DNA of 64,000 nt from a virus. This document shows positions 2,912 to 60,724 of this stretch, piece after piece (position 1 is the first letter of the stretch; every line of letters begins with the position of its first letter). The notes beneath the pieces were generated by a model. The model ran no database searches, was not told the DNA's origin, and was given only the letters and a program-made list of their open reading frames with translations. The stretch is from positions 1 through 64,000 of the IMG/VR virus record IMGVR_UViG_3300006925_000014. One strand, 5' to 3'. The position numbers were made by a program, and so were the translations under genes.

Positions 2912-4239
2912 TGAGTAATACCGGGCATCATCCTTCCTATGTAGGCACCACCAGAGTATTTGTAGAATCTCCAAGATATGAAACATCAGAGATTACTGCT
3001 ATTACCCTACAGGTTTCTATTTTTGAAAACATTTCTTTGCCGTACATCACAGCACAGCTAGTTATTGTTGATTCTGCTAATGCTTCTAACGCTGTGCACT
3101 TTCAGGGGCAGGAAAGAGTTATTATTGCTATTATTGACAAGGATGAAAAAGTTGTCTTTAATAAAGAATTTATCTGTATGGGTATTGAATATGGGCAAAA
3201 AATCGGTGATGACAAATCTGGTTTTATTGTAAAGCTTATTGAAGAGCATGCTATGCTCAGTAACAGCACTAGATTTAGCAAGGTGTATGAAGGAAAACCT
3301 GATGACATTTGCACACAGGTATGTCAAGAGCAATTAGGTGTAGGTGTATCTGTAGAAGGCTCTACCACACAAAGCCAAATGCGAGTGGTATTCCCATTCA
3401 CTGTGTCTCCACTTGAAGCGGCTAACTGGATGGTGACCAGATGCTCTACAGGTGAGGGCATACCGTTCTTATTCTATTCTAGTCTGTCAGAAGATACACT
3501 ACAGCTAAAAGATGTAAACACACTTCTGTCTCAAGGGGCATTCAATGCTGGTGATCCATACATTTTTGCTAGTGTGAGTACACCAGAACCCGGTGGTCCA
3601 GAAGATCGTGAAATCTTGAAAAAGAAAATTCTGAGTTATTCTATACCAAACAATGAAGACACTTTATTTGCTATGGTTAAGAATGTCTATGGTGGATATT
3701 ACCATTTTATTGACACATACGAAAAAGGGGGTGAAGAAGCCATCTATGATTTTACCAAACCTTATGGCAGCTTACCTAAGCCAAATGGCTCCACCAAGTA
3801 CAATTATGATGAAGAGTTTACGATTGGTAGACCCTACCACAAAGGACAAAACACCTACACCAGCCAAGTAGCAACTAGAAAGCTGTTTGATGACATGTAC
3901 TCTTTCCTTGAAGAAGATGATATTGAGATGCATCTTAAAAAGGCAGAGTCAAGGGGAATTTATAATTTCTTAGATCAACAGCCTATTACTTTTGCAGTAA
4001 ACGGGATTGACTTAGGATTTGATAAATTAGGTAAGACAGTAGATGTATATATTACAAAAGATATTCCAGCAGAAGAAAAAGTATCACCAGAGCAAATGAA
4101 AGATAAGAAGCGGTCTGGTGAGTACCTTATTCAGAAAGTCATGTATACTATTTTTGATAACAGATTAACATCAACAGTAACAGCAACTAAGACTAGTACA
4201 AATAATAATCTTGGTGGTGAAAAGGTTAATATAGCATAA
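2911..4239 (+). CDS. 27: Baseplate hub protein gp27-like
   Basis: This 442-residue protein fits the T4 gp27 hub family (about 390 residues). Gp27 forms the trimeric hub cylinder that holds the gp5 spike and docks to the tail tube. Visible family-like stretches are an N-terminal beta domain (TAITLQVSIFENISLPYITAQLVI, with IVDSANA), an oil-rich second beta barrel with EFICMGIEYGQK, and a mid-region FPFTVSPLEAANWMVTRC about residues 165-185. The C-terminal part (about 320-442) is charged. It is directly followed, with stop/start overlap, by the gp5-type OB-fold gene, the partner expected for gp27. The start is fixed by the TAATG junction with gp53. Confidence 0.8.
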   Translation: MSNTGHHPSYVGTTRVFVESPRYETSEITAITLQVSIFENISLPYITAQLVIVDSANASNAVHFQGQERVIIAIIDKDEKVVFNKEFICMGIEYGQKIGDDKSGFIVKLIEEHAMLSNSTRFSKVYEGKPDDICTQVCQEQLGVGVSVEGSTTQSQMRVVFPFTVSPLEAANWMVTRCSTGEGIPFLFYSSLSEDTLQLKDVNTLLSQGAFNAGDPYIFASVSTPEPGGPEDREILKKKILSYSIPNNEDTLFAMVKNVYGGYYHFIDTYEKGGEEAIYDFTKPYGSLPKPNGSTKYNYDEEFTIGRPYHKGQNTYTSQVATRKLFDDMYSFLEEDDIEMHLKKAESRGIYNFLDQQPITFAVNGIDLGFDKLGKTVDVYITKDIPAEEKVSPEQMKDKKRSGEYLIQKVMYTIFDNRLTSTVTATKTSTNNNLGGEKVNIA

Positions 4240-4787
4240 TGACAGATTTATACAAGACCATACAAAAAGAATTTTATGGGGATAATGTCAGATGGTTTGT
4301 TGGCATTGTAGAAGATAATAAGAATGATCCTGAAAAGCTTGGTAGGGTTAGAGTACGAATTTATGGAACACACAATGCATATTTGTCAGATGTTCCTACA
4401 GAAAAGCTACCTTGGGCAACAGTTTTGGTTCCCGGTACATATGGTGGTGTGTCTGGTGTAGGCAGGAGCCCTACAGGGATTGAGCAGGGAGCAATGGTCT
4501 TTGGTATGTTTATGGACGGTAAACATTCTCAGAACCCATTAATCATAGGTACGATTCCAAAGATTGAACAGGAATCCGGTAAAGATATTACACCAGAAGT
4601 TAAAATTGAACCTGCTAAAATTGAAAGTTCTATTGGTGGTGCTGGTGATACTGTAGGTGCTGTTAAGATTGATGATGACTTATTTGGAATAGAATACTCA
4701 GGTGGAGTAATTATTTTCCAGAAAGCTACTGAAAAGGGGTATGGTGTTATGGCAGCAGCAACTTTGGCTAGTATCGGTTCAATTTAG
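4239..4787 (+). CDS. 5: Baseplate spike OB-fold protein (gp5 N-terminal part)
   Basis: This 182-residue protein carries the gp5/VgrG-type OB-fold: FVGIVEDNKNDPEKLGRVRVRI near residues 20-40, LPWATVLVPGTYGGVSGVGRSPTGIEQGAMVFGMFMDG about 60-95, then PLIIGTIP. In T4 gp5 this domain binds gp27 and is followed in the same chain by a lysozyme domain and the triple beta-helix needle. Here the chain ends after the OB-fold and a short tail, and the needle is a separate gene at 7129. The lysozyme function appears to be supplied by other genes in between. It overlaps the gp27 stop by one base. The ribosome site of the next gene (AGGAG) begins immediately after its stop. Confidence 0.85.
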   Translation: MTDLYKTIQKEFYGDNVRWFVGIVEDNKNDPEKLGRVRVRIYGTHNAYLSDVPTEKLPWATVLVPGTYGGVSGVGRSPTGIEQGAMVFGMFMDGKHSQNPLIIGTIPKIEQESGKDITPEVKIEPAKIESSIGGAGDTVGAVKIDDDLFGIEYSGGVIIFQKATEKGYGVMAAATLASIGSI

Positions 4788-4797
4788 GAGTTAAGGT

Positions 4798-5172
4798 ATG
4801 GTTAGAATTGCCCCTGATAAATTTCCCATAAGCGCACCTAAGAATGAGTTTACTCCATCTCCCTTTGCTGGATGTGTAGCCTATCCTACAGATGAAAAGT
4901 TTGGTGTGTTTAATTTTACTGGATTTATGCTTGTGGGATATAGAGCATACTGCTTTGCTAATAATCTAGATGTAAATGATGTTGGTGTACAGACTGACTA
5001 TTTACTTAAAATGCTAGAGGAAAAAACTAATCTTAGAGGCACAGAATTAAAAAGTGCAGAGACAATTGAAAAGGCCGCACAGCTAATTCATGAATATATA
5101 CTTCAAGACACAACAAACATTGATAAGACTATTGACCTTGCATATGACTTTCTAGAAAGGAATACTGCATAA
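4798..5172 (+). CDS. Small hub-locus protein of unknown function
   Basis: This 124-residue protein matches no family I recognise. The N-terminal half is Pro/Phe-rich (DKFPISAPKNEFTPSPFAG) and the C-terminal half is predicted helical with a charged repeat pattern (LRGTELKSAETIEKAAQLIHEYIL). It has no signal peptide or membrane segment. It lies between the OB-fold spike gene and the CHAP hydrolase, with an AGGAG-type ribosome site about 8 bases before its ATG and a TAATG overlap with the next gene. That suggests a hub-associated structural or assembly role, which is inference from position only. Confidence 0.7.
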   Translation: MVRIAPDKFPISAPKNEFTPSPFAGCVAYPTDEKFGVFNFTGFMLVGYRAYCFANNLDVNDVGVQTDYLLKMLEEKTNLRGTELKSAETIEKAAQLIHEYILQDTTNIDKTIDLAYDFLERNTA

Positions 5173-6419
5173 TGCCAAATGAATATGATAGAATAAAAAA
5201 CACATCGTGGGTGACCCTTGACTTTATGAGTGACCCTAGCGTCAACGTTGGCAAGTACATTGCTGATTATGGTGGAAAACCTGCCACAGAATTTGAATCT
5301 AAGCAACAAATTACTAGTAGAATTTTAGATAACCAGACCAGTCAAGCTGATGCAGGTGAAGATGAGACCTTTGAGTACGGTGATGAGTTTGATGTACAAG
5401 ATGAACCTATCTATGGACCAGCAGGTAGCGGTACTGCAATCATTAATAATGAGAAGGTGGAACATAATGATCAGCCTAACTATGGTCCCCCCGGTACTAA
5501 TAGTTCACAGGAAGGCGGTTCTAACAAATCGTTAACCCCTAATGGTGTTCCGCCCGGTGCAGCTAGAGCAGAGACAGGAACCTTTGAGGATGCAAGTAGA
5601 ACTTCAAAGTCCAGCAAGCTAACCCTACAGGACGGTACTACACTTATCACTACAAGTGGCACATATGCTTCACAGCTTTCCAGTATGTTCTGTAATGTCA
5701 GTGTTGTCTATGCCAGAAACCAGAATGTCAAGTACAGTAACAATACAGGTGGTGGTAATAGTGGAACTAATGCAGCAGGAGATTTGGGTGACGCTGGCAA
5801 CGAATATTCTGATGCTGAGTTTGATGCTGCTACTAATGAAGAAGTACAAGAAGATATCTTGAATGCACTTGGTATTGATGATCCTTCTTCTATTGAAGGA
5901 TTTGAATATGGAGATACGTTACAACAGACCTTTGATAATCTTAGAGATTCTGGTGTAGACATTGATGGTATGCTTGCTGCATCTAATCCAATTGACGTTG
6001 CATCTGCATTCTTAGGTGCTAATGAAAACAACCCTGCACACGCTGCTGTTCTGGGACAATTCTTTGAAGCTTCTACAGGAACCAGTATCAATCCTGCACA
6101 GACTGCATGGTGTGCTGCATTTGCTAACTCTGTAGTAGCATCTACAGGGCTGCAACCTACAGGTGGACTTAATGCCAAGTCATTCCTAAATTGGGGACAG
6201 GGTGTAGATATTTCTAGTGGACTTGGAAATGTTAAACCGGGTGATGTTGCTGTATTTGATAGAGGTACACCGGGTGATTGGAGAGGACATGTTGGATTTG
6301 TTCAATCTGTCAATGCTGATGGTACGTTAAATATTCTTGGTGGTAACCAAGGCAACAGTGTGAGTATCAGAAAATACTCTACTGATAGACTTGAAGGTAT
6401 TAGAAGGGCTAAGAGGTAA
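5172..6419 (+). CDS. CHAP-domain peptidoglycan hydrolase in the hub locus
   Basis: Of the 415 residues, the C-terminal about 130 form a CHAP-type amidase/endopeptidase domain. Seen are TAWCAAFANSVV with candidate nucleophile Cys314, a following NAKSFLNWG, the GDVAVFDRG turn typical of the fold, and GHVGFV with candidate His373. CHAP enzymes cut peptide cross-links or the amide bond of murein. The N-terminal 165 residues are low-complexity and acidic and contain two YGP-type repeats (PIYGPAG, PNYGPPG). A small beta segment (LTLQDGTTLITTSG, about 150-165) follows and may bind the hub. It sits between two halves of a split gp5, coupled by one-base stop/start overlaps, so it is probably a virion-borne wall-piercing enzyme rather than a lysis endolysin. 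Confidence 0.8.
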   Translation: MPNEYDRIKNTSWVTLDFMSDPSVNVGKYIADYGGKPATEFESKQQITSRILDNQTSQADAGEDETFEYGDEFDVQDEPIYGPAGSGTAIINNEKVEHNDQPNYGPPGTNSSQEGGSNKSLTPNGVPPGAARAETGTFEDASRTSKSSKLTLQDGTTLITTSGTYASQLSSMFCNVSVVYARNQNVKYSNNTGGGNSGTNAAGDLGDAGNEYSDAEFDAATNEEVQEDILNALGIDDPSSIEGFEYGDTLQQTFDNLRDSGVDIDGMLAASNPIDVASAFLGANENNPAHAAVLGQFFEASTGTSINPAQTAWCAAFANSVVASTGLQPTGGLNAKSFLNWGQGVDISSGLGNVKPGDVAVFDRGTPGDWRGHVGFVQSVNADGTLNILGGNQGNSVSIRKYSTDRLEGIRRAKR

Positions 6420-7129
6420 TGGCAGTAGGTGATCCAATTGTAACCGTAAAGAGAAAGGTTAACTTTGCTGACAGGTTTAATCCTGATGTAAAGACCTTAT
6501 CTTCTGATTTTATGGGTGATGATATTTCACCTGTATTTGATGCTCTGACTGCTAAACCGGGTGATTATATTGAAACCCCTGAAGAAATAGAAGCATACCT
6601 TAGATCATCCAGAAGGGAGTATACACAGGTTATTATATGCAATACTCACACAGACTTCAAGCAGAATTTAGACAGGGCTGGATTGCTTGATTGGTATAGT
6701 CAGTCATATGAACAATTGGATGTTAACTATCATTTTCTGATTCTTAGAGATGGACGTATACAGATTAATAAAGGTATTAATGAAGAACCACCATTTACTC
6801 CTGTAGATATTCATGTTCCATTTAGTATCAGTGTTGCTATGGTAGGTGGCATGAAAGATGGTGAGTATGATATTGATACTTGTTCACCTAATCAGTGGAA
6901 AACTCTCAGAGCATTCTTGAAGACATTCTATACTATCCTTCCGGGTGGGCAGGTCTTTGGTCATTCTGATATTAATCCCTATGCACCTGATCCGGGTTTT
7001 GATGCAGTACGGTATGTAGAGAAAAGTTTTGGTAAAAGAAATACACTGAGAAATGCTGATGCAAGAGCCAAAGGGTCTTTGAGCATCTATGAGCTAATCG
7101 GTGAAAGTAGAAGAAGAGGGTTCAGATAA
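6419..7129 (+). CDS. N-acetylmuramoyl-L-alanine amidase-like hydrolase (Amidase_2/PGRP)
   Basis: This 236-residue protein has the zinc amidase layout. Candidate zinc ligands are His77 (ICNTHTDF), His182 (GHSDINP) and Asp191 (DPGFD). The central VNYHFLILRDGRIQ strand (about residues 103-116) is characteristic of the T7-lysozyme/PGRP fold. Such enzymes cleave the bond between MurNAc and L-Ala. An N-terminal extension of about 60 residues precedes the domain. It lies between the CHAP gene and the needle gene with TAATG overlaps on both sides, so it is expected to be made with the baseplate hub. A lysis role cannot be excluded, but no holin gene is adjacent. Confidence 0.82.
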   Translation: MAVGDPIVTVKRKVNFADRFNPDVKTLSSDFMGDDISPVFDALTAKPGDYIETPEEIEAYLRSSRREYTQVIICNTHTDFKQNLDRAGLLDWYSQSYEQLDVNYHFLILRDGRIQINKGINEEPPFTPVDIHVPFSISVAMVGGMKDGEYDIDTCSPNQWKTLRAFLKTFYTILPGGQVFGHSDINPYAPDPGFDAVRYVEKSFGKRNTLRNADARAKGSLSIYELIGESRRRGFR

Positions 7130-8652
7130 TGTCTACTGGCTTTAAAGACCCGGATGGTGAATTTCCACGTTCTGATTATGGAGGTGCTGCAACCACTAAC
7201 AAAGCATCTAGAGAAGAGTGGGAGCCTTATGTTAAGCTACCTGATGGGACAGAGAACCTTGAGCTAGTATCAACAGACTGGCAACCCAAGTATCCTTATA
7301 ATAAGGTAGAAGAAACTTCATCTGGTCACAGAATAGAGACTGATGATACTCCCGGTGAAGAACGTCTTTCTTTTGTACACAAGGATGGTAGTGGTATTGA
7401 GATGTATCCTAACACACAGGATGCAACTACATTCCTTATCAATTCTGTAGGTAGACAGGTTCAGTTGGTTGGTGATGATTTTGTAATGATTGTAAATGGT
7501 AATGGTGATGTTCATTACAAAGGCAACCTGAATTTGAATGTGGATGGTGATTTTAATATTGCCTGTACTAACTTTACTGTGACTACAACGGGTAAACAGA
7601 TTGAAGAAATCCGACAAGAGAAGATTGAAAACTTTGTAGGGGACAGAGTTGTCACTACACAGGGCAGTAAGTCTGAAGTTGTTCTGGGTAACTACACTGT
7701 AGAGAGTATGGGAAACAGTCATTTTGTTTCTAAAAAGAATACTCGTATTACAGCAGAAGACAATATTGATATTTTTGCTGGTGATGACATGAGACTGACA
7801 GCAGAAGGCACTATGACCAGTTCTGCTATGACTAACAGATTAATTGGTCTTTGTACTTCTGTAGTGGGCAATACAGGCACCTTTGGTGGGCAGAACATGG
7901 TTATGTATGCTAAGACATATCATGGTGATGTTATTGGTACAGCAGAAAGGGCTAGGTATGCTACAGACACTGATCCTGATGCAGTACAGACTGCTATGCC
8001 GACAACTGCAAACCTGACAGAAGGTCTGACCAAGACAAAGACACTTGGTATCCGTAATATTGATGTAGATGATGGTAGAATTTCCAGTAGTGTTAAGAGT
8101 GAAGTTCAGTCTTCTGGTTCATCTTCTAATACTGCACAAAGACCAGATACATTTGGTGACGATCCAGCACCTACTACAACCACTAGAGAGGGTAGGTCGG
8201 GCGTTGGTGATTTTAATCCAGATGACCCTGCTACTGAAAGATACAACAATCCGGGTGGTATGTATCCTGCTTCATGGCAAGAGAAGTATGGGGCTGTTTC
8301 TAATAGTGATCGTATTGGTGGTGGTCACTCTATTGCAGGATTTGCAACAAAAGAGCAGGGTGCTGCGGCACACATGGCTCTGTTGAAAGAAGGTAAGTAC
8401 TATAGAAATGAATCTATTTCAGGTGCAATCAATACATGGTCTGGTGGTAATAATGTTAACAGCTATCTTTCCAGTCTGCAAGCACAAGGCATTGATACCT
8501 CTAAAAATGTTTCGTTCTATACCAGTACCAAGGCAGGTACAATCAAACTTGCCAAAGCAATGTCTTTCCATGAGACGGGCAGAAAGTTCAGCCTGTCAGA
8601 TCAGGGATGGTCTAATGCCTATGACTTGGGCAACAGTAAGGGATGGTTATAA
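7129..8652 (+). CDS. 5: Spike needle (gp5 C-terminal beta-helix) with P5-like lytic transglycosylase domain
   Basis: This is a 507-residue central spike protein. Residues about 75-270 hold the short-period beta repeats of the gp5/VgrG needle (HKDGSGIEMYPN, then VGRQVQLVGDDFVMIVNGNG and NLNVDGDFNI, AEDNIDIFAGDDMRLTAEG). A Ser/Thr-rich linker spans about 310-360. The C-terminal 140 residues begin RYNNPGGMYPASWQ and continue GFATKEQGAAAHM, a pattern of the phage P5-like lytic transglycosylase/lysozyme group (R-NNPG...W-G...GFA-F-----G--A). In T4 gp5 the lysozyme precedes the needle; here the order is reversed and the OB-fold is a separate gene (4239). This makes a third candidate murein hydrolase in the locus. 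Confidence 0.75.
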   Translation: MSTGFKDPDGEFPRSDYGGAATTNKASREEWEPYVKLPDGTENLELVSTDWQPKYPYNKVEETSSGHRIETDDTPGEERLSFVHKDGSGIEMYPNTQDATTFLINSVGRQVQLVGDDFVMIVNGNGDVHYKGNLNLNVDGDFNIACTNFTVTTTGKQIEEIRQEKIENFVGDRVVTTQGSKSEVVLGNYTVESMGNSHFVSKKNTRITAEDNIDIFAGDDMRLTAEGTMTSSAMTNRLIGLCTSVVGNTGTFGGQNMVMYAKTYHGDVIGTAERARYATDTDPDAVQTAMPTTANLTEGLTKTKTLGIRNIDVDDGRISSSVKSEVQSSGSSSNTAQRPDTFGDDPAPTTTTREGRSGVGDFNPDDPATERYNNPGGMYPASWQEKYGAVSNSDRIGGGHSIAGFATKEQGAAAHMALLKEGKYYRNESISGAINTWSGGNNVNSYLSSLQAQGIDTSKNVSFYTSTKAGTIKLAKAMSFHETGRKFSLSDQGWSNAYDLGNSKGWL

Positions 8653-9545
8653 TGCTAAAATTTAATATTAATAAACTTTCCCCTAGAGAAGTCAGAAGTC
8701 TGCTGAGAGATCCAAACAACAGAGAAGACGGTGTTCTTGTAGGAGCAGCATTTGCCAAGAACCTTATTGGTGGGGATTACTTTGTTCCTCTTGCAAGGAG
8801 ACTGAGAACATACTTTGGTTCTAAAGCAGGAGCAAAGTATTCTAAGGATTCATTTATCAAGTCTAAAAAGCCAAGACGGTACAAAGAGAACCTTGGTTTA
8901 AAGGCAATTCTACCTGATCCAGTCTATGATCCACTCAAGCTTCCAACAATCAATTCAGGAACAAAACTAGGGCAAGGCATTCCTTTGTCTATGTTTGCTA
9001 ATGCACCGGGCAGTAAGGGTACACTCAATCACTTATCACAGGCAGACAGAAAAGAGATTGCAAAAAATCTTTATTGTCAAGTCCCTTTGATTGAAGGATT
9101 TAGAAACCAAGCAAAATTTAGAAACTACAGTCTATTTGTTTCTGATGGTCTGGTCAAGAAGCAAGACACTGAGACATTGACTTCAGGAGACATTAGAGAC
9201 TTGCAGACCAAGGGCAGGGCAGTTGTCTATGAAGTCTTGGATAATAAGGGTAAGAATGATCCACAGGCTACATTTGAGTTGGCAAACTACTGGAAAGACA
9301 ATCATCTGTTTCAGGGATTGATCTTACACTTTGACAGCATGGAACCGTTAACAGAAGACCGCTATGCTAACAGACATGACAATATAGAATTCCTTGACCC
9401 GACAAGAGAATATCATGCAGAAATTATTGTTGTTATGCCCAATGTAGATTACTACTACAGAGGAAATTTTGAAAGACGGGTTCGCACTGATATTAACTTC
9501 AGGCCATTTATCAAAGGTGGTTTAGGGCATTTCCAATATAAATAA
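8652..9545 (+). CDS. Hub-locus protein of unknown function
   Basis: I choose the ATG at 8652, which overlaps the needle gene stop as TAATG like every other junction in this operon. An in-frame ATG at 8643 would add three residues. The 297-residue product is basic at its N-terminus (RRLRTYFGSKAGAKYSKD, then KSKKPRRYKENLG) and mixed alpha/beta afterwards (NYSLFVSDGLVKK, AEIIVVMPNVDYYYRG). I recognise no domain and see no signal peptide or membrane helix. As the last gene before the gp25 late promoter it closes the hub operon, so a structural or hub-assembly role is likely. Confidence 0.75.
   Translation: MLKFNINKLSPREVRSLLRDPNNREDGVLVGAAFAKNLIGGDYFVPLARRLRTYFGSKAGAKYSKDSFIKSKKPRRYKENLGLKAILPDPVYDPLKLPTINSGTKLGQGIPLSMFANAPGSKGTLNHLSQADRKEIAKNLYCQVPLIEGFRNQAKFRNYSLFVSDGLVKKQDTETLTSGDIRDLQTKGRAVVYEVLDNKGKNDPQATFELANYWKDNHLFQGLILHFDSMEPLTEDRYANRHDNIEFLDPTREYHAEIIVVMPNVDYYYRGNFERRVRTDINFRPFIKGGLGHFQYK
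9537..9544 (+). promoter_or_regulatory. Late promoter TATAAATA before gp25
   Basis: This exact late octamer overlaps the last codons of the preceding gene and lies 30 bases upstream of the gp25 ATG. It begins a new late transcription unit for the wedge genes gp25-gp6. Confidence 0.8.
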
Positions 9546-60046: not shown

Positions 60047-60724
60047 ATGTATAATATGTTTTATATATACGCATATTTGCGCAAAGACGGCACACCTTAC
60101 TATATTGGTAAGGGTAAAGACAATCGAGCATTCTCTAATACTGGTAGAGCTTTCAGGCGACCAAAAGATGAAAATCGTATTGTTATAATGGAATCAAACT
60201 TGACTGAGTTAGGTGCTTTCGCATTAGAGAGAAGATATATAGAATGGTATGGTCGTAAAGATTTAGAAACTGGCACCCTACACAATCGCACGGATGGTGG
60301 TGACGGTATACACGGATACAAACACTCACCTGAGTCCATAAAAAAGATGAGTGAAGCACATAAGGGCAAAAAGCTTTCTGAAGAGCATAAAAGAAAAGTG
60401 AGTGATGCTCTTAGTGGTAGAAAGCTTTCTGAAGAACATAAAAGAAAAATGAGTGAGTTACGCAAGGGTAAAAAGCTTTCTGAAGAGCATAAAAGAAAAG
60501 TGAGTGATGCTCTTAGTGGTAGAAAGCTTTCAGAAGAGCATAAAAGAAAAGTGAGTGATGCTCTTAGTGGTAGAAAGCTTTCTGAAGAACATAAAAGAAA
60601 AATGAGTGCTGCTCAAAAGGGATTCAAACAAGAAATCGTAACTTGCCCTTATTGTCAAAAAACTGGTGGGAAAAACATTATGATGAGGTGGCATTATGAA
60701 AACTGTAAACAAAAAAGAACTTAG
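60047..60724 (+). CDS. GIY-YIG homing endonuclease with NUMOD3 array and zinc finger
   Basis: This is a free-standing homing endonuclease of 225 residues. The GIY-YIG domain (about 1-90) shows [20 protein letters not shown], then the catalytic-region Arg and [12 protein letters not shown] with Glu, and N-TDGGDG. Six NUMOD3 DNA-binding repeats of 17 residues follow ([34 protein letters not shown] and variants, about 92-193). A C-terminal zinc-finger-like CPYC-x12-H-x4-C (about 201-220) ends it. Seg-type enzymes of this family cut a target in related phages lacking the gene and spread by repair. It is inserted between uvsW and a small frameshifted gene. Confidence 0.92.
60320..60625 (+). repeat. 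51-bp tandem repeats encoding NUMOD3 units
   Basis: AAGCTTTCTGAAGA... units start at 60371, 60422, 60473, 60524 and 60575, exactly 51 bases apart and nearly identical in DNA. A diverged first unit lies at 60320-60370. The low synonymous divergence points to recent expansion by unequal recombination, giving an array longer than the one to three NUMOD3 copies common in such enzymes. Confidence 0.9.

Follow-up and report, generated by a model that had tools for sequence, protein, structure and literature searches.

In an uncultured, marine-type, T4-like myovirus, the functions of gp5 are probably spread over five adjacent genes of the locus for hub and needle, with two enzyme cassettes and two predicted hydrolase relics lodged there. 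The window analysed was a stretch of 64,000 bases, comprising positions 1 to 64,000 of a 67,007-base IMG/VR virus record (IMGVR_UViG_3300006925_000014). This record is itself a fragment and holds mostly virion genes of a T4-like myovirus, including homologues of gp53, gp27, gp25, terminase, sheath, tube and head protease. A megablast search against the phage collection returned no near relative or near-identical named phage, and the named phage listed first by its gp6 protein was C48C1 (Kyanoviridae) at 34% identity. Relatives were also sought in bacterial genome contigs, where none was confirmed. The features of the locus are collected in Table 1.

Table 1. Features of the hub and needle locus (window coordinates)
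Feature	Position	Strand	Evidence
gp27-like hub protein, 442 aa	2911..4239	+	phrog_350 tail protein E 3e-38; position same in relatives
gp5 OB-fold domain as own gene, 182 aa	4239..4787	+	Pfam Gp5_OB (PF06714) E 2.7e-14; phrog_430 E 3e-39
Predicted Phage_lysozyme2 relic, 124 aa, without N-terminal catalytic half	4798..5172	+	PF18013 E 5e-4
CHAP protein, conserved N-terminal part	5172..5860	+	alignments and profile survey
Exchange slot A: CHAP domain (C314, H373, N390)	5861..6419	+	PF05257 E 3.8e-11; residue check
T7-lysozyme-like amidase, probable pseudoenzyme in the window	6419..7129	+	Pfam, PHROG, family profile, alignments
gp5 needle (beta-helix) gene before the tip	7129..8160	+	solved gp5 spikes E 2e-6; phrog_430 E 4e-22
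Exchange slot B: predicted Enc34-type lysozyme-superfamily glycosidase, needle tip	8161..8652	+	model vs 7q47; profile vs 9vvp Gp29
Conserved 300-aa protein between needle and gp25	8643..9545	+	no Pfam/PHROG match; main and sister clades

The divided gp5 and its locus

In T4, gp5 is a single chain that carries the OB fold, the lysozyme and the needle together. In the window, the OB fold and the needle are encoded by separate genes, as had been proposed by an earlier, sequence-only reading of this DNA; matches in Pfam, PHROG and among solved spikes bear out this split, and the open reading frames have the coordinates that were then given. The product of the first gene contains the Gp5_OB domain of the T4 spike, while that of the second is homologous to solved T4-type gp5 spikes (E 2e-6 to 6e-6) and begins with GFKDPDGEFPR, the segment that follows the OB fold in one-chain gp5. 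Given that the locus is identical in two further contigs and that its gene order was found again in approximately 30 IMG/VR relatives, the split is real and not an assembly error. A sister clade keeps both split and order, but without the gene for the CHAP protein and with a longer amidase protein. Among environmental contigs generally, other splits of gp5 occur in many and one-chain forms in others. In three more distant contigs with a split gp5, a different protein lies between the OB fold and the needle (L103:1014-1886, L112:5267-5950 and L134:4751-5656); that of L103, the only one of the three to be scanned, had no significant Pfam match (best E 0.03).

The genes between the OB fold and the needle are hydrolase-derived. 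Two of them, for a CHAP protein and an amidase, had been recognized previously, but the lysozyme2-related gene at 4798-5172 had been missed. The one-base overlaps said to link all of the genes are found at 4239, 5172, 6419 and 7129; the OB gene, however, is separated from that at 4798 by a gap of 10 bases, and the needle gene overlaps that at 8643 by 10 bases. Taken as a whole, the initial observation was thus partly confirmed, with corrections.

Several other genes of the record were noted. In the place between needle and gp25 (8643-9545), several more distant contigs have a 271-aa open reading frame. The gp53 homologue (1334-2911) has 525 aa, and its counterparts in relatives reach 751 aa; family similarity is mainly N-terminal, and a variable insertion follows approximately residue 147. 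At 60047-60724, six NUMOD3 motifs (PF07460, E 2e-24) mark what is probably a relative of homing endonucleases. Just outside the window, at 65241-66344 of the record (G000; L040:17242-18345), a PnrA/BMP-type ABC transporter substrate-binding protein is encoded (PF02608, E 2e-53) beside a 316-aa protein that appears to be membrane-bound and matched nothing in Pfam; the two are possible auxiliary nutrient-uptake genes.

The lysozyme2 and amidase genes

The lysozyme2 gene, kept in nearly all relatives, is predicted to be a relic that has lost its catalytic half. Its sister-clade counterparts match nearly the whole of PF18013, from model position 4 on, and lie over the curated cut-off of 28.2 bits (30.5-34.5 bits, E 3e-8 to 5e-7). 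Only the second half of the domain is matched by the window gene (model 48-115, 20.6 bits, under the cut-off); the N-terminal half is missing from it, and with it the Glu of the catalytic column. The AlphaFold model of the relic (mean pLDDT 59) found phi29 gp13 as its best fold match (Z 4.3), in agreement with the Pfam family though too weak to stand alone. Alignment of the last ~28 residues of the OB protein with a sister-clade profile by hhalign gave a probability of 82% for likeness to the first helix of lysozyme2, compared to a best of 17% for 100 column-shuffled profiles. With a single-sequence HMM the likeness was little above shuffles, and the profile-profile test alone was clear. As this helix is the one missing from the window gene, the domain may have been divided across the OB gene and that at 4798 at the active site, a reading with moderate support.

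The amidase gene matches Amidase_2 in Pfam at E 5e-4 (under the curated cut-off) and phrog_822 at E 3e-14, and its family profile finds T7 lysozyme (1aro and 1lba, E 1.8e-11 and 5e-11, respectively), establishing homology. Assignment to this family on sequence alone was consequently sound, and of the three active-site residues named with it, the invariant His182 and Asp191 stand; His77, however, lies outside the column of zinc ligands, in which the canonical position is residue 75. That residue, aligned with the T7 ligand His17, is His in most main-clade relatives, Asn in the window, L008/L009, L018 and L061-L063, and Ser in L094; the tree requires at least three changes for it. At the position of T7 Lys128, where PGRP-type amidases have Thr, almost the whole main clade has Ala (A189 in the window); L061 has Ser there, and the sister clade has Arg. 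Of a zinc site composed of His, His and Cys or Asp together with Lys or Thr, the window protein retains H182 and D191, with N75 and A189 at the remaining positions. In the related endolysin Ts2631, the replacement H30N, which matches this His-to-Asn change, dramatically lowers activity (PMC4573324). Asn75, the lost Lys or Thr and the behavior of the Ts2631 variant together lead to the prediction that the window amidase is a pseudoenzyme, a prediction that is less sure for those relatives that keep His75.

His77 might bind zinc instead, being only two residues removed from the normal place, and with such a shifted ligand the amidase, the CHAP domain and the glycosidase could all be active. The invariance of His182 and Asp191 and the normal His of most main-clade relatives would fit this, but it is unlikely in view of the Asn75 substitution, the second catalytic position and the Ts2631 precedent; moreover, L018 and L061-L063, which also have Asn in the zinc column, have Lys at 77, and hence loss of the zinc His is independent of a nearby His. 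It had been suggested that the virion would attack the wall with glycosidase, amidase and CHAP activities as a multi-enzyme piercing spike. The notion of a multi-domain hub is supported, since CHAP and glycosidase form the C-terminal parts of proteins whose N-terminal parts recur in the hub operons of all close relatives. With the amidase zinc site broken and the catalytic half of lysozyme2 gone, simultaneous action of all three is not, and the count of three activities probably does not apply to this phage.

A further possibility is that the relic genes are passengers heading for loss, with no structural role. Their missing active-site residues would accord with this, and loss of catalytic residues does not by itself establish a structural role. 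However, the amidases of the more distant main-clade relatives are 49-63% identical to that of the window, with many invariant non-catalytic residues, and the gene is in place in every relative covering the position, the distant sister clade included; together with the near-universal retention of lysozyme2, this makes the passenger explanation distinctly improbable, and the relics are probably structural. Transfer of the lysis endolysin into the hub operon, the other origin suggested for one of these enzymes, is very improbable: although the amidase is closest to T7-type lysis amidases and a scan of a subset of the proteins of the 67-kb record turned up no lysis gene, the record is a fragment of largely virion structural genes, the amidase is degenerate and constant in its hub-operon position, and the CHAP domain is a removable tip, missing in many relatives, on a conserved hub-operon protein. 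As the record is incomplete, a separate lysis endolysin may lie elsewhere in the genome. No T4-type Phage_lysozyme was found in the 67-kb record.

The exchangeable domains of slots A and B

The CHAP domain reported previously, with its Cys314 and His373, was upheld. It occupies residues 310-392 of a 415-aa protein, scores 43.7 bits against a cut-off of 26 and also keeps Asn390; it appears intact and is predicted to be a live enzyme. A single-sequence PDB search with this stretch returned no match. The N-terminal part of the protein is present in all main-clade relatives, whether followed by an enzyme or by none, and CHAP itself is absent from many. The C-terminal position, slot A, is filled by CHAP, M15 or M23 domains or is empty. 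An M15 peptidase takes the slot in L018 (PF13539, E 1e-3; phage endolysin families down to 4e-11), a different M15 type occupies it in L062 (E 1e-8), and in L063 the occupant is an M23 peptidase (E 2e-28).

The last ~150 residues of the needle protein have no Pfam or PHROG match. A profile of this tip domain and its sister-clade N-terminal counterparts found the N-terminal domain of Gp29 (9vvp, E 5e-6), and the AlphaFold model of the tip (mean pLDDT 66; first 60 residues unreliable, good beyond) matched the Enc34 endolysin (7q47) with Z 8.4 and rmsd 2.9 over 110 aligned residues, the next unrelated fold having Z 4.9. The tip model therefore belongs with the permuted lysozyme fold of the Enc34/PHA02564 glycosidases. 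The Enc34 endolysin, which has this fold and a catalytic Glu131, is a proposed N-acetylglucosaminidase (PMC8943055). Trp437, Tyr446/464 and Glu482 of the tip are invariant in eight relatives and are candidate counterparts of Trp79, Tyr95 and Glu131 of Enc34; an invariant Glu also aligns in the N-terminal copies of the sister clade. By its position, Glu482 is a candidate catalytic residue, and the tip is predicted to be a live glycosidase of the lysozyme superfamily, closest to the Enc34 endolysin. The domain had earlier been called a P5-like transglycosylase. An NNPG motif (NNPGG at 373) is present, but the nearest solved fold is that of the Enc34 endolysin. Among the matches listed in PDB profile searches, phi6 P5 was absent.

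In relatives, slot B at the needle tip contains an Enc34-type domain, a GH73 glucosaminidase (L014 and L016, E 7e-19) or an SLT-like domain (L015, L061 and L063), or is empty. The sister clade has an NNPGN-type domain at the needle N-terminus in L090, L092 and L097, which is missing from L089, L094 and L096. Exchange is seen in close pairs. The needle cores of L015 and L016 are 98% identical as protein and their flanks 92-94% identical as DNA, and their tips are unrelated; L014 combines the tip of L016 (100%) with the middle segment of L015 (83%, versus 39% to L016). On a tree of downstream genes made by a quick method, slot B underwent at least nine changes among 31 contigs, six of them in the main clade, compared to 12-19 with shuffled labels; it follows descent partly, yet changes often. 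For slot A the tree requires at least four changes. The relatives in this survey are all metagenomic contigs, many with a partial locus, and duplicates of one contig were taken out by hand for the counts. Judged by their sequences, the approximately 30 IMG/VR relatives keep the scaffold and exchange the enzymes.

The families of slot A (CHAP, two M15 types and M23) are all peptide or amide cleavers, and those of slot B (Enc34-type, GH73 and SLT) all glycan cleavers. Random assignment of the seven families would give such sorting once in 35, and sorting of the slots by bond type within the clade is suggestive only. The rule fails outside the clade, where the Methylophilales phage Melnitz has M15-type domains on both proteins.

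A proposed hub and its known counterparts

The OB and needle genes are proposed to encode the two structural halves of gp5; as in T4, the needle would be a trimer, seated on gp27 and the OB protein. The lysozyme2 and amidase proteins would be older hydrolases whose active sites were lost within the lineage and which were probably retained as structural hub adaptors. Wall cutting would then fall to the two C-terminal cassettes, a CHAP amidase/endopeptidase in slot A and an Enc34-type glycosidase in slot B. On contraction of the sheath, the needle would take the glycosidase through the outer membrane to cut glycan strands, and CHAP would cut stem peptides. It is suggested tentatively, at somewhat less than an even chance, that the hub is a standing platform, with worn-out hydrolases as adaptors, a slot A that takes peptide cleavers and a slot B that takes glycan cleavers.

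With T4 gp5, the window shares the OB fold, the needle sequence and the order of OB fold, lysozyme-type domain and needle; it differs in its split into genes, in having a lysozyme2 relic and not a T4-type lysozyme, and in the extra enzyme at the needle tip. CHAP also adjoins the gp5 OB fold in Ackermannviridae (Shigella phage Ag3) and in Ochrobactrum phage ORM_20, and ORM_20 likewise has its needle in a separate gene, distant from the OB gene in its genome. However, in these phages CHAP is fused to the OB fold, whereas that of the window belongs to another protein, which has a conserved N-terminus of its own. The OB domain is a gene of its own in Melnitz and C48C1, followed in Melnitz by the needle in the adjacent gene and in C48C1 by an unannotated 451-aa protein in the needle position; unlike the window, no lysozyme2 or amidase genes were seen there between the OB and needle positions. 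In RaK2 gp078, a lysozyme domain forms the C-terminus behind a beta-helix (PMC3622015), but the available excerpt of that account describes no split or exchange series. The hub protein gp15 of the Anabaena myophage A-1(L) similarly bears hydrolases for both glycan and peptide bonds, and activity has been demonstrated for two of these (PMC10966104); all of its enzymes are within the hub barrel protein, in contrast to those of the window, which are on the needle and an accessory protein. A split gp5, CHAP in the hub, an enzyme at the needle tip and several enzymes in one hub are each known already, and what appears new is that relics occur together with exchange slots that seem to be sorted by bond type.

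Domain shuffling is known for phage receptor-binding proteins and endolysins (PMC10684548). Judging by the exchange in close contig pairs, domains are apparently shuffled in contractile tails as well, at the tip of the needle. Two questions thereby become testable: whether wall-entry enzymes follow the peptidoglycan chemistry of the host, and whether the baseplate retains former enzymes as parts. If the platform reading is true, an exchange of cassettes would let these phages change their means of penetrating the wall while the puncturing machine stays unaltered.
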